Assembly: GCA_017395365.1 (NCBI GenBank)
Contig: JAFPUN010000003.1
Span: forward strand, 186,001-250,000
Reading direction: 5' to 3'
Length of the DNA: 64,000 bases
Source: Bacteroidales bacterium
Lineage (GTDB): Bacteria > Bacteroidota > Bacteroidia > Bacteroidales > F082
In this document: positions 39,340 to 45,300 of the stretch, one piece after another
Numbering within the stretch: position 1 is the first letter of the stretch
How the letters are laid out: each line of letters starts with the position of its first letter
Notes under the pieces: generated by a model
What the model was told of the DNA's origin: nothing
What the model saw: only the letters and a program-made list of their open reading frames with translations
Database searches by the model: none
Translations under genes and position numbers: made by a program

Positions 39340-39527
39340 CCCCTTCGGGGTTCAGCGGAATTGTCTGTTTTCTTCGGCAGGGGTTGACACCCCCTGCCTC
39401 GGATGCTGTCACCCTTTCAGGGTTCCGCTAGTGGCGAAATCCCGAAGGGATGACAGCAAATAGGCGGGGGTGTAAACCCTCGCCTATAAATAAACGGTAT
39501 TATCAAAACCCCGTAGGGGTGACAGAA
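39340..39527. repeat. Intergenic repeat cluster between polA and metG
   Basis: Several short palindromes lie in a row: CACCCCTTCGGGGTTC, GGCAGGGGTTGACACCCCCTGCC, CACCCTTTCAGGGTT with AATCCCGAAGGGATGACAG, GGCGGGGGTGTAAACCCTCGCC and ACCCCGTAGGGGTGACAG. The units CCCTTCGGGGTT and CCCGAAGGGATGACAG are variants of one family. The gap holds no gene. Stem-loops here could end transcription from both convergent genes. Confidence 0.75.
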
Positions 39528-41934: not shown

Positions 41935-42381
41935 TTATCTTTTTTGAGGTTCAGGAAAAGGAACTGGATCATAAGCAACATTCGTGATTTCAATGTTGTA
42001 TTGATAAGTCTTACCTTCTTTCTCAGGACCTCCTTCAATTACTCCTCTTCTGCTACTAGTCAATTCTATTGATCTTCTTGCTGCGGGGATATTGGTAAAA
42101 TCATCATCGCACAACTCTAATGTTTTTTTGCTTCTGATAGGATAACTGGATTGTTCATACCAGGAGATAACAACTGTAACACGGATGTGTGCTTTAGTGA
42201 TTGTCAAATCGGAATTATTAGTGATTTTCAAGCGTCCCTGTTTTGAAGAATCGTGACTGCGGTCGTTGAAATATTCAACATTCAACGAACCCGATGGAAC
42301 AGGATAACTACTTGCCGCATTTTGCGCGCTTGCAGTAACTCCAAAATAGATTAATGCGATTAAAATTAGTATCTTTTTCAT
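41935..42381 (-). CDS. Small secreted protein of unknown function (cluster member 4)
   Basis: The 148-residue protein has a signal peptide (MKKILILIALIYFGVTASAQ). The mature part looks like a single beta-sandwich: LNVEYFNDRSHDSSKQGRLK, then ITNNSDLTITKAHIRVTVVI and a strand YQYNIEITNVAY near the end. The pattern resembles extracellular Ig-like domains in which a modified strand contains a Trp-Tyr pair (ISWYEQ). I recognise no named family. It is the last of four small exported proteins on one strand and is followed by a clear terminator. AT-rich codon use separates the group from metG. Confidence 0.6.
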   Translation of the reverse strand: MKKILILIALIYFGVTASAQNAASSYPVPSGSLNVEYFNDRSHDSSKQGRLKITNNSDLTITKAHIRVTVVISWYEQSSYPIRSKKTLELCDDDFTNIPAARRSIELTSSRRGVIEGGPEKEGKTYQYNIEITNVAYDPVPFPEPQKR

Positions 42382-42445: not shown

Positions 42446-42649
42446 TTATTCTGCGGAATTGTCTATCGGCAACACAGCCTCTTCGTAATCGATAGAGGGG
42501 TTGGCTTGATCATTATTATTGTACAATTTCCAGTCACTGTCGTTATGGTGCCCATATCCGGAAGTTCCATAATCCTTTTCGCAGGAAGTAAAGATGAACG
42601 GAAGAGCCATCAGGCTTAACGTGAATACTGCTTTAACTAGTTTTTTCAT
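42446..42649 (-). CDS. Very small lipoprotein of unknown function (cluster member 3)
   Basis: The 67-residue protein has a lipoprotein signal (LSLMALPFIFTSCEKDYG) and a short mature part of about 46 residues. It is rich in Asn, Asp, Gly and Tyr (YGHHNDSDWKLYNNNDQANP). There is too little sequence for a fold. The start at 42649 is chosen over 42682 because the signal peptide begins there. It may be a surface-exposed tag or partner of the neighbouring exported proteins. Confidence 0.5.
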   Translation of the reverse strand: MKKLVKAVFTLSLMALPFIFTSCEKDYGTSGYGHHNDSDWKLYNNNDQANPSIDYEEAVLPIDNSAE

Positions 42650-42733
42650 TTTTTTATTGCCAGTTATATCCCATCGGCACATCGGTTTTTAGGTAAATGT
42701 TTTATTGGGTCTTTGATACTATTTTATATTATT

Positions 42734-43126
42734 TTATTCAGCTTTATATGCTTTGTATTTTACATAGTATTTTTTATAACCATCATGGTTAACACCAGGA
42801 GCATTATAAGTTGTATTCCCACATTTCCAAACATAAGTTTCTCTTGCATTTAATGTAAAACTTTTTGTGTCACGAACACTTTCTTCTACTTTTGCTTCGT
42901 TATCATAGTATCCTCCATAACTATATGGATAAATCCATAATTCCGCTTCTACCCAAACTGGATAATTATTCTCGTTCTTAAACTCGAAACCATGCATGTC
43001 AACTCCACGATCATTGCGATACTCCACAACCCTTGTTTGCACACCTCGAACTTCTTTCAGTTGTGCAAATACATTGGTAGATGCAAAACACATCAAAATG
43101 GTTAACAATGCCATTATCTTTTTCAT
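42734..43126 (-). CDS. Small secreted protein of unknown function (cluster member 2)
   Basis: The 130-residue protein has a signal peptide (MKKIMALLTILMCFASTNVFA). The mature part is a probable beta-sandwich with alternating aromatic residues: VDMHGFEFKNENNYPVWVEA, then ELWIYPYSYGGYYDNEAKVE and KKYYVKYKAYKAE at the end. The phrase ENNYPVWVEAELW has the same layout as QNNSYTVVLYNNN in member 1, which suggests distant relation. No family is recognised. The strand and spacing match the rest of the group. Confidence 0.6.
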   Translation of the reverse strand: MKKIMALLTILMCFASTNVFAQLKEVRGVQTRVVEYRNDRGVDMHGFEFKNENNYPVWVEAELWIYPYSYGGYYDNEAKVEESVRDTKSFTLNARETYVWKCGNTTYNAPGVNHDGYKKYYVKYKAYKAE

Positions 43127-43202: not shown

Positions 43203-43613
43203 TTAATCATCATCTCTAGGATCTCTTTTGGCGGGTTCCTTCCCCAACTGCACGGTCACATACTTTTCGTTTCCTGCAGGCACCTCTCCTGGCCAAGCAT
43301 ATACGGTTCTTGAAGCAGATTGTCCACAACGAATGGTTTCTTGGTAATACTCACTCACCCTTTCACCTTTATAAGAAAGGTACCATTCGAAATTGTAGCT
43401 GGTTATTTCACCTTGATTGCCTCTGTTGTTATTATAAAGAACAACAGTATAGGAGTTGTTTTGATTGGCGGTTACGTAGCCGACACTAATGCCTTCTTTA
43501 GAATTTACAGTAACATATTCTGGTTCAACGAAATTAGGAATCCAATATTGGGCTTTTGCTGTATGGACGCCTATCCCCACGAAAAGCATCATTAAAAGAA
43601 CTATTTTCCTCAT
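43203..43613 (-). CDS. Small secreted protein of unknown function (cluster member 1)
   Basis: The 136-residue protein has a signal peptide (MRKIVLLMMLFVGIGVHTAKA). The mature domain is beta-rich: EYVTVNSKEGISVGYVTANQ, then SYTVVLYNNN and SYNFEWYLSYKGERVSEYY. It ends in a charged tail (AKRDPRDDD) after a strand KYVTVQLGKE. One Cys is present, so no disulfide is expected. It is the first gene behind the -7 box at 43665-43672. I recognise no family, and a single Ig-like or carbohydrate-binding-like sandwich is the best structural guess. Confidence 0.6.
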   Translation of the reverse strand: MRKIVLLMMLFVGIGVHTAKAQYWIPNFVEPEYVTVNSKEGISVGYVTANQNNSYTVVLYNNNRGNQGEITSYNFEWYLSYKGERVSEYYQETIRCGQSASRTVYAWPGEVPAGNEKYVTVQLGKEPAKRDPRDDD

Positions 43614-43734: not shown

Positions 43735-44070
43735 CTACAGACGGTTTCGACTTATCAATTCTTCAAGAAACCAAGCCACCCGCTTCGCGTCGTCATCACA
43801 TAATTCATCAATGTTTATGTCAAGATGGATTTCTCGAGGACAAAGCGACGATTTCATCCCCCTTTGGAGTTGAATATCATCTAAAAAATTATGTTCCAGC
43901 GCATCGCAAATGTCTAATAGTTGCTCCATGTCAATACTTGGTCGTTCAAAGATGAAATACACGTTGGAGCGTGCGGTATGAATGCGACGTGCGAACTCAG
44001 CCACACTCATTCCACTCTCATCGAAAACGGCTTTGACAAGTTGCCCGATATGAAGGTTTTGTTTAGCCAT
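43735..44070 (-). CDS. XRE-family helix-turn-helix regulator
   Basis: The 111-residue protein has a helix-turn-helix at about residues 5-60 (IGQLVKAVFDESGMSVAEFA, then RRIHTARSNVYFIFERPSID) and an acidic C-terminal part (DINIDELCDDDAKRVAWFLE). It resembles regulators of mobile elements and stress genes. The frame is open back to 44142, but the ATG at 44070 gives the natural domain start. Its own promoter is about 250 bases upstream (44325-44332), so the mRNA has a long leader carrying the large inverted repeat. The gene lies just upstream of, and on the same strand as, the four small secreted proteins, which it may control. Confidence 0.75.
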   Translation of the reverse strand: MAKQNLHIGQLVKAVFDESGMSVAEFARRIHTARSNVYFIFERPSIDMEQLLDICDALEHNFLDDIQLQRGMKSSLCPREIHLDINIDELCDDDAKRVAWFLEELISRNRL

Positions 44071-44096
44071 GTCTCTGCGTATTAGACATAGAAAAA

Positions 44097-44251
44097 GCGT
44101 GGAAAATATTTCTTGCCAGGTACTTCGGGTTTCCACTCCCACTCATCTAACAAGCTTTCCACGCCGTATAAATACGGCAAATCGGAAACTTTTTCTTGAT
44201 GAGTTGCCCTCATAAAGAGGACTGGTAGTGGAAATAAACGAAGTACCAAGA
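44097..44251. repeat. Large structured inverted repeat in the XRE gene leader
   Basis: GCGTGGAAA at 44097-44105 pairs with TTTCCACGC at 44156-44164. GCCGTAT-AA-ATACGGC forms a perfect hairpin at 44063 plus 100 (44163-44178). Two outer arms at 44111-44147 and 44198-44251 share, in inverted order, TCTTG, GTACTTCG, TTTCCACT and ACTCATC. A small hairpin CCTC-ATAAA-GAGG lies inside the second arm. The structure falls wholly within the predicted 5' leader of the XRE gene and holds no gene of its own. The rest of the 44071-44466 gap holds only promoters. Confidence 0.7.
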
Positions 44252-44324
44252 ATCAGCCTCAAATCGCTGTTTATCCTATGTCAACATGTTGCTTTGCTTA
44301 CATAATATGGTGTTTTATTGGATG

Positions 44325-44332
44325 CAAAGATA
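44325..44332 (-). promoter_or_regulatory. -7 box of the XRE gene
   Basis: On the minus strand it reads TATCTTTG, about 255 bases upstream of the XRE ATG. Confidence 0.55.
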
Positions 44333-44466: not shown

Positions 44467-45300
44467 ATGAAAATAAAACTGAGCTCTAAATTTATTGTGG
44501 TCGCTTTATTGATGGCGACACAAACCTTTGCGCAAACCACTGAAGAAAATGTCACGCCTCAGATTGTGCACAAGAGCAAGGTGCCGATCTGGCTCAATAT
44601 GGGCGTTGGCTTAGATGTGGCCGACTGTTACGACAACGGCACCGCCCCGTTCCGCTACCTCGGCGTGGGCGCCGACCTCAACCTGGGCGCCACCGTCGAA
44701 TGGCGACGCTGCCACGTGCAGGTCGAGTCACGGCTGTTCGGCAACATGCTCACGTCGTTCGACGGCTACGCCTTGGACCTCGACAGCCGCGCCGAGTTCC
44801 TCTACCGCTTCCACGACAGCAAACGCAACCGCTTCCACCTGTGGGCCGGCGGCGGCATCCAGACCTTCTACGACATCAAGGAAAATGCCTCGATGATGAA
44901 CGCCGCCATGGGTGCCTCAATCTACGAGAACCTCTGCGCCGAAGGTATGGCACAATACGACTTCGCCTATATCAAAGGCGGGTCGCACAACCTGCTCACA
45001 GCCTACGGCAAACTGAGCCTGCCTCTTGCTGGGCTGGTCAGCAGGCCAGGCTACGCCTATATGGACAACTATACGGGCGACATCAACTTGGCCAACACCG
45101 TGCTCAGCGACTACGAGACCTTCGGGATGTTCTTCCCTGGCGTCAGCACCGACATCGGACTGTACCTCAACCTGTTGAACGGCAACCGCATCGGCTTCAA
45201 CTACCGTTGGGACTACCTCACGACCAGGAACACGGGCGCCTACCGCTTCGATAATGCATTGCATACGTTTAATCTTAATCTCATGTTTAATATCAATTGA
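44467..45300 (+). CDS. Outer-membrane beta-barrel protein
   Basis: A signal peptide (MKIKLSSKFIVVALLMATQTFA) precedes about 250 residues of alternating polar and hydrophobic strands. Examples are LNMGVGLDVADCYDNG, FHLWAGGGIQTFYD, RIGFNYRWDYLTTR and the terminal strand TFNLNLMFNIN. The end in an aromatic/Asn pattern is typical for outer-membrane barrels, with about 10-12 strands. No specific family is recognised. The next three genes (S41 protease, TonB receptor, DUF4249) follow on the same strand, so it may be part of the same surface system. Confidence 0.7.
   Translation: MKIKLSSKFIVVALLMATQTFAQTTEENVTPQIVHKSKVPIWLNMGVGLDVADCYDNGTAPFRYLGVGADLNLGATVEWRRCHVQVESRLFGNMLTSFDGYALDLDSRAEFLYRFHDSKRNRFHLWAGGGIQTFYDIKENASMMNAAMGASIYENLCAEGMAQYDFAYIKGGSHNLLTAYGKLSLPLAGLVSRPGYAYMDNYTGDINLANTVLSDYETFGMFFPGVSTDIGLYLNLLNGNRIGFNYRWDYLTTRNTGAYRFDNALHTFNLNLMFNIN

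Follow-up and report, generated by a model that had tools for sequence, protein, structure and literature searches.

A candidate two-state leader RNA ahead of an XRE-type regulator gene and its relatives across Bacteroidales

Why does the DNA just ahead of a small regulator gene in a Bacteroidales genome fold so strongly, and does this structure act as RNA, as DNA, or not at all? The region lies in a window of 64,000 nucleotides (by which we mean the whole stretch of DNA that was analysed) from a 2.1 Mb Bacteroidales genome that is 72.6% complete and whose genus includes Candidatus Limimorpha caballi. An earlier note on this DNA had predicted, from a -7 box, an XRE leader of about 250 bases with several stems inside it, and had offered control by RNA structure, a phage-like immunity region or a recombination site as explanations. 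The box, TATCTTTG, is of the TAnnTTTG type, which we take to be the promoter consensus of Bacteroidota. Transcription is expected to start near 44318, and the expected leader, from about 44318 to 44071, is near 250 nt, in agreement with the note. A structured element lies between this motif and the XRE gene, and its match ends 14 nt from the XRE start codon (Table 1). Four small ORFs are the downstream cargo of this RNA-XRE unit; relatives of the first two, with 58-59% identity, also follow an RNA copy in the Ca. Limimorpha caballi genome (G002). On the other side of the RNA, a divergent ORF (44467-45300) has no Pfam match, and we saw no toxin-antitoxin (TA) gene adjoining the RNA among the flanking ORFs inspected.

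Table 1. Positions of the promoter motif, RNA element, helices and genes of the RNA-XRE unit in the window.
Feature	Position	Strand	Basis or remark
-7 promoter box TATCTTTG, Bacteroidota-type TAnnTTTG	44325-44332	minus	sequence
Structured RNA element, ~190 nt	44085-44282 (5' end 44282)	minus	match to model R1, 167.4 bits (R1 was built from 29 sequences, this copy among them)
Helix H1, fold B: CGAAGTACC with GGTACTTCG	44239-44247 with 44119-44127	minus	hypervariable, Watson-Crick
Helix P3, fold B: TTTCCACT / AGTGGAAA	44130-44137 / 44227-44234	minus	
Helix H5, fold B: ACTCATC / GATGAGT	44141-44147 / 44198-44204	minus	hypervariable
Apical hairpin P7, fold B: GCCGTAT / ATACGGC	44163-44178 (44163-44169 / 44172-44178)	minus	
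Fold A terminator: GCGTGGAAA with TTTCCACGC, then T-run	44092-44164 (44156-44164 with 44097-44105; T-run 44092-44096)	minus	
XRE / Cro-C1-type HTH_26 regulator, 111 aa	43735-44070	minus	
Four small exported or lipoprotein-like ORFs	43203-43613, 42734-43126, 42446-42682, 41935-42381	minus	export signals by eye

Elsewhere in the window, a second short conserved leader motif, GCCGATGGGATATAACTGG, lies at 42660-42678 on the minus strand, before small exported or Cys-rich ORFs; it is followed by an A-rich stretch and, about 10-12 nt on, an ATG. The window's own genome holds three copies with at most two mismatches. An 18-base form, CCRATGGGATATAACTGG, is matched exactly 21 times among the 99 genomes of the genus, in 15 of them, compared with 0 for a reversed control pattern. 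An Acido-Lenti-1 RNA (RF01687; 42.2 bits, gathering score 37) matches at 39438-39483 on the minus strand, between ORFs that by eye resemble polA and metG.

The stems drawn in the earlier note are where it had put them: the 9-base stem GCGTGGAAA/TTTCCACGC, the GCCGTAT hairpin, and the inverted blocks GGTACTTCG/CGAAGTACC, TTTCCACT/AGTGGAAA and ACTCATC/GATGAGT. The folding exceeds chance. The minus strand at 44070-44325 has an MFE z of -5.15 and the plus-strand reading of 44097-44260 a z of -6.0, with none of 200 dinucleotide shuffles as good in either case; across three family copies, z ranged from -5.1 to -7.6. Loss of the stems in homologous loci, one of two results that the note had named as speaking against it, was not what we found; the stems are kept, with covariation in two largely separate sets of copies (below). 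For the second, a transcription start downstream of 44097, the evidence comes from the promoter motif, which is enriched upstream of the family (below). That an ordinary 5' leader might fold like this by chance, for which nothing speaks beyond RNA's general ease of folding, is countered by the low z values and refuted by this covariation, and we give it essentially no weight.

The element has many relatives. A blastn search with 44097-44325 gave matches in 64 of 99 genus genomes, the window's own included, and R1, a covariance model made from 29 sequences, matches 79 of the 99 at E <= 0.01 and 75 at E <= 0.001, with up to 13 copies per genome. The window's own genome carries a second copy (G000:C4:10039-10229). 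At the level of the family, 76 of 173 sampled genomes match, in only 2 of 16 genera and weakly in the second; an even sample of the order gave matches in 47 of 393 genomes and 32 of 206 genera, including one in another family that scores like the window copy (168.5 vs 167.4 bits). In a phylum sample with few Bacteroidales, the single match among 395 genomes is the window's own. A strict DNA pattern picked out 112 stretches in genome contigs. The count of copies used below came down from 120 aligned rows to 115 and then to 100 unique copies with the removal of a reverse-strand palindromic match (L141), elements shorter than 170 nt and duplicates.

We also looked for the element in known families and on mobile replicons. 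For the window copy and 28 other element loci, no overlapping Rfam 15 match reaches its gathering score; the best is 33.3 bits against a threshold of 120, and a known Rfam RNA was rejected on these below-threshold matches. The exact degenerate pattern occurs in 0 of 2.9 million viral contigs, and blastn with one near copy as query found nothing in plasmid and phage records. These searches speak against the phage-like immunity region proposed in the earlier note and, in the plasmid records, against a plasmid-borne element. The element has a wide but patchy distribution in Bacteroidales, is not matched in Rfam 15 and, as far as these searches show, is chromosomal.

Given that copies of the family share these stems, we asked how well the pairing holds across them. 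One set of pairs, fold B, consists of H1, P3, H5, H6, P7 and a variable side hairpin and is close to the MFE fold; its nested stems are visible in 29 predicted folds of family copies. In a set of 87 distinct near members, standard pairs fill 94.3% of the pair cells, with covariation of 0.327, compared with 0.127 in shuffled and at most 0.061 in slid alignments. Among 36 distant members, 94.3% are again paired and covariation is 0.786, compared with 0.211 shuffled and at most 0.101 slid. As judged from these alignments, the covariation of fold B is very strong. The near alignment (A2) has 91 rows, including the reverse-strand match L141, and draws on 86 of the 112 pattern loci; the near and distant sets are largely separate, with one copy common to both (L198 = L129).

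Two of the fold B helices change fast. Restricted to copies with a long enough unbroken helix, a choice that favours paired arms, H1 has 33 distinct arm sequences in 92 of the 100 copies and H5 has 43 in 86. In the related copies L147/L151 and L029/L139, both stem arms have changed in concert while most of the other sequence is identical; mismatched stems occur in a few copies, such as L178 and L083_5948 (in H5 of the latter). G-U pairs are nearly missing from the hypervariable H1 (3 of 491 cells; H5, 16 of 465), which hints at DNA-templated correction of the arms or at selection for strong pairs. Such scarcity would be surprising in a helix kept up purely as RNA, and it counts against a leader RNA as the whole explanation.

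A second set of pairs, fold A, competes with the first. It joins strand 1 to strand 2 (ATTCTTGA / TCAAGAAT) and strand 3 to strand 4 (CTTG / CAAG, often CTTAT / ATAAG in distant members), closing GCGTGGAA on TTCCACGC right before the T-run. Here the 9-base stem of the earlier note finds its place: it is present in the DNA, but it lies outside the MFE folds of the window and is part of this competing terminator fold. In the 100 copies, 6-8 T follow within 8 nt of CACGC/T in 95, those where the motif was found. Near members are 97.5% paired in fold A, with covariation of 0.113 compared with 0.081 shuffled and at most 0.067 slid; G-U is tolerated, and two pairs have often changed on both sides (AU 33 and GC 26; CG 52 and UA 24). 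Distant members are 88.4% paired, against 41-53% in slid alignments, with covariation of 0.162 compared with 0.135 shuffled. Double-change pairs and pair types show no clear excess over shuffles (132 and 60 of 500 in the near set; 25 and 42 of 500 in the distant set). Covariation in fold A thus appears modest: it is above shuffles but weaker than in fold B, and it partly tracks subfamilies. The RNAalifold consensus on alignment A1 is fold A; we think that this choice is due in part to MAFFT misaligning the hypervariable stems. Taken together, these comparisons lend fold A moderate support.

Which strands are conserved differs between the two folds. In A1, mean column entropy is 0.05 bits for positions paired in both folds, 0.24 for fold A only, 0.65 for fold B only and 0.78 for neither. 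The corresponding values in A2 are 0.18, 0.27, 0.71 and 0.93 bits; conservation is overstated there at GGCGTGGA, CTTGTTAGA and the 3' strand of P3, which are invariant in the DNA pattern used to gather this alignment. In the distant alignment, A5, they are 0.48, 0.51, 1.43 and 1.06 bits. Neither A1, a blastn selection, nor A5, an R1 selection, is pattern-selected, yet either kind of search favours conserved strands; a fold B model guided the alignment of A2 and A5. In these alignments, conservation appears to follow the switch: stems that serve fold B only drift, and strands that fit the terminator fold do not. The two-state model can therefore be tested from sequence alone, given that the conserved strands are those of the terminator fold and the one-fold stems drift.

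To compare the energies of the two folds we used constrained folding, in 95 of the 100 copies. The mean predicted energy is -71.1 kcal/mol for fold B (MFE) and -57.2 kcal/mol for fold A, which lies about 14 kcal/mol above the MFE (range 0-28). The terminator helix is in the MFE of 2 of the 95 copies and is missing in the other 93. In all 92 scorable transcripts cut before the last strand of the terminator, H1 has already formed. Given that fold B is both favoured and formed before that strand, read-through looks like the thermodynamic default in these models; a ligand, a protein, or the timing or kinetics of RNA polymerase would then be needed to impose fold A, and the gap of about 14 kcal/mol likewise suggests that switching needs kinetics or a factor.

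These observations fit an attenuation-like mechanism. In fold A, pairing of 1 with 2 and 3 with 4 would bring GCGTGGAA together with the 3' TTCCACGC as an intrinsic terminator, with the U-run just before the gene, and transcription would stop. In fold B, the partner of strand 1 (CTTGA) would be strand 4 and that of strand 2 (TCAAG..AAG) would be strand 3 (ACTTG), which would break the terminator hairpin and let RNA polymerase read into the XRE or cargo gene. The RNA family, both conserved pair sets, the U-run and the placement before genes on the same strand come directly out of the computation. The leader is presumably transcribed; we infer that termination takes place in cells, that the change from one fold to the other is controlled, and which fold is the default. 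On this evidence from sequence, the XRE mRNA probably begins with this segment as its 5' leader, a member of a bistable ~190-nt terminator/antiterminator RNA family of Bacteroidales.

We next consider the genes around the copies. The gene next downstream is of the XRE type in at least 52 of 100 copies, a lower bound, since the XRE genes of L010 and L013 were masked by the simple ORF caller. The next gene is on the strand of the RNA in 86 of the 94 copies with a gene call and on the other strand in 8, at a median distance of 21 nt; among XRE-less copies it is on the same strand in 37 of 42. On the upstream side, the nearest gene shares the strand of the RNA in 64 of 90 copies. In 52 of 97 copies a TAnnTTTG motif lies in the 150 nt before the RNA, compared with 5.6% of mononucleotide shuffles, and in XRE copies it is most often 46-55 nt upstream. 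Control by RNA structure, as raised in the earlier note, is supported by the two competing conserved folds, the terminator near the start codon and the strand bias of the next genes.

The main rival is an independent family of trans-acting, multicopy sRNAs of ~200-250 nt, each with its own promoter and terminator, in which the next gene would be reached through incidental read-through. The promoter motif upstream of roughly half the copies, an end that resembles an intrinsic terminator and the many copies per genome would all suit such an sRNA, and paralogous sRNA families are known in Bacteroides (FopS, in the passages of PMC11697453 that describe it). It leaves without explanation the short distance and shared strand of the next gene, a bias also seen in XRE-less copies, and it fits poorly with a short-XRE class whose start codon touches the U-run and with 18 XRE-less, motif-less copies that sit 29-84 nt behind a same-strand gene. 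We consider this rival unlikely, with some weight left to it. A second possibility is control of translation, in which the 5' GACATA would pair with the 3' TATGTC and hide the start-codon region. The MFE folds of the window copy and several others include this outer pairing, and in the short-XRE class the ATG lies within TTTTTTATG. Several copies (e.g. L019, L021, L023, L032) lack the outer stem in their MFE, however, the next ATG is 20-130 nt off in many, and the conserved switching strands would have no role, all of which makes this reading very improbable.

To see how closely the RNA is tied to its XRE partner, we took the window XRE and its ten closest relatives (E <= 1e-18, 30 genomes): 8, counting the window and one partial match, have an R1 match directly upstream. 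Two close relatives, both in G013, have no R1 match upstream, and L246 starts at a contig end, so that its upstream side cannot be judged. Among 19 more distant relatives, 2 have an R1 match (L257, L258) and L270 is a weak candidate at 20 bits. XRE leaders that lack an R1 match, in the 14 of 20 loci covered, include some that fold strongly against mononucleotide shuffles (z of -6.8 in L245, which is one of the G013 pair, -4.9 in L256, -4.0 in L259 and -3.0 in L260), with nine others at -2.0 to +1.2. The leaders of L245, L256 and L259, similar by eye, may be divergent members of the RNA family. R1 may fail to recognise divergent members, and the RNA may simply be absent from many XRE relatives.

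What the RNA precedes varies widely. Counting as cargo the gene after the XRE where one is present and otherwise the next gene, 88 downstream genes below 700 aa include 12 with a T9SS sorting domain, 5 radical SAM and 4 with BspA-type LRR; the family scans took genes below 700 aa, and large BspA-like proteins are among those left out. No common pathway is apparent among the best 25 families of each scan, and this diversity argues against a metabolite tied to one pathway as the trigger. By eye, the loci L063, L068, L075 and L195 have RNA-XRE units followed by Cys-rich or NRREFF-type peptides, with radical-SAM-like ORFs in L068 and L075 as well, and radical SAM matches are also found among the cargo genes; these loci are possible RiPP clusters under the RNA leader.

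The genes upstream are of another kind. Among 51 same-strand genes below 700 aa ending within 200 nt upstream of the RNA, 12 match HEPN, 8 DUF1016, 4 Fic and 3 nucleotidyltransferase, with single matches to PIN, YafQ, RhuM, Panacea, DUF2442 and GNAT and also to housekeeping families such as ATP synthase subunit C. A control of 72 genes at least 2.5 kb away (73 drawn, one duplicate dropped) has no HEPN or DUF1016 and one Fic among the best 25 of 78 Pfam families, and three PDC-S01, one Vsr and a few other single matches among the best 25 of 27 PADLOC families, a view in which single-member families may be hidden. Among the control genes is an XRE gene that follows a further copy of the RNA. The Fisher test counted the control as 1 of 72, and its value is only indicative, related copies not being independent. 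Toxin-antitoxin and abortive-infection-type genes thus appear, by these domain matches, to be enriched just upstream of the RNA. Behind the ribosomal-protein/tsf operon, four genomes (L065, L066, L067, L069) carry differing TA-like modules, RNA copies and cargo, which has the look of an insertion hot spot.

The genes that flank the RNA also appear to be exchanged. Arrays of the kind RNA-cargo-TA / RNA-XRE-TA / RNA-XRE occur (L064), and 43 pairs of copies share only the upstream flank and 28 pairs only the downstream flank. Such one-sided sharing suggests that genes on either side have been exchanged while the RNA stays. The recombination site proposed in the earlier note keeps a small probability, in that flanking genes are swapped around the element, but in 10 flank-swap pairs there is no fixed crossover base, and identity changes at differing places. 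The clearest switch, close to the apex in L112/L178, is likely to be an assembly chimera, given that L178 sits at the end of a contig and its stems are mismatched. Nor did we see the segment between the arms inverted, another suggestion of the note: every aligned copy has the single orientation, none with its inner part reversed, and an inversion site was rejected. Where a reverse-strand match overlaps a forward one, it is weak (L141, L257, L247; 19-29 bits).

Could the element then work as DNA? In this reading it would be a recombination or mobility site, attC-like or a cassette boundary, with the hairpin acting as single-stranded DNA. TA modules are frequent in integron cassettes. The cassette-like arrays and flank swaps, the near absence of G-U in H1, the TA modules upstream of the RNA and the patchy spread over families are all as expected of such a site. 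It would, however, leave fold A and the U-run without a purpose; the crossover positions vary, integron core sites are missing at the element ends, no recombinase caught our eye in the arrays inspected, and the searches made gave no viral, phage or plasmid match. We regard this reading as a good deal less likely than the sRNA. Best supported overall is a terminator/antiterminator leader that would act in cis before XRE regulators and accessory genes and would have spread within Bacteroidales by repeated horizontal transfer.

The terminator/antiterminator reading can be extended to a mobile cassette, tentatively and on balance doubtfully. The bistable RNA, with or without its XRE gene, would spread both inside a genome and from one Bacteroidales genome to another and be set before accessory genes of recent acquisition (secreted, BspA, RiPP), often directly behind a TA or abortive-infection gene whose transcription into the cargo it would gate; the one-fold stems would be renewed fast and kept Watson-Crick perfect, possibly by hairpin-templated correction at the level of DNA. 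If this is true, stem renewal would stop sister copies from cross-pairing or recombining. As for the earlier note, its interpretation as a whole is partly supported: the stems at 44097-44332 are confirmed as real, and they are part of something larger than its reader thought. An order-wide RNA family with up to 13 copies per genome and no Rfam 15 match would offer an example of a two-state, bistable RNA. If the terminator switch works, it would explain the control of accessory surface, secretion and peptide-maturation genes, often beside TA modules, in gut Bacteroidales, and the family could serve as a compact, portable regulatory part in a phylum for which few riboregulators are known.

How does the element compare with known systems? 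HTH_XRE was the commonest domain directly downstream of candidate RNAs from human microbiomes in the sections of Fremin and Bhatt 2021 (PMC8040213) that cover this point (15 candidates), and one candidate there, HMP2_1881, is a 108-nt, mostly Bacteroidetes RNA near radical SAM genes. The named motifs in those sections are 38-132 nt, compared by description with the ~190-nt element here; part of our family might be among the unnamed motifs. FopS and GibS of Bacteroides likewise form a multicopy Bacteroidales RNA family with an intrinsic terminator. FopS, as set out in passages of PMC11697453, consists of one terminator hairpin behind a 5' stretch that is single-stranded, and it is reported there to be in Rfam; the present element differs in its nested stems, its competing fold and the lack of an Rfam match. 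Most of the Bacteroidetes motifs given in the relevant part of PMC2864571 have an Rfam number and are therefore covered by our Rfam searches, except Bacteroides-2 and GUCCY-hairpin, which have none there. Among the open-access papers that our searches listed, we saw no description of the element.

The element shares with attC sites variable stems that are kept complementary, a position behind small TA genes, and cassette-like arrays. Integron attC sites carry the core sites RYYYAAC / GTTRRRY at their ends. By eye, the element instead ends in GACATA / TATGTC or similar, with GTTAGAT only inside it, and an integron attC was rejected; the length of ~190 nt, the long conserved switching strands, the promoter motif and the U-run are also unlike attC. 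In the general model of an attenuator, conserved strands pair in two exclusive ways, one of which forms an intrinsic terminator before the gene. Attenuators and terminator-type riboswitch leaders are thus the closest in kind, with two exclusive pairings, a terminator just before the gene and placement on the same strand; unlike them, the present family is known from sequence alone, stands in many copies per genome before unrelated genes, and has hypervariable stems in one of its folds.
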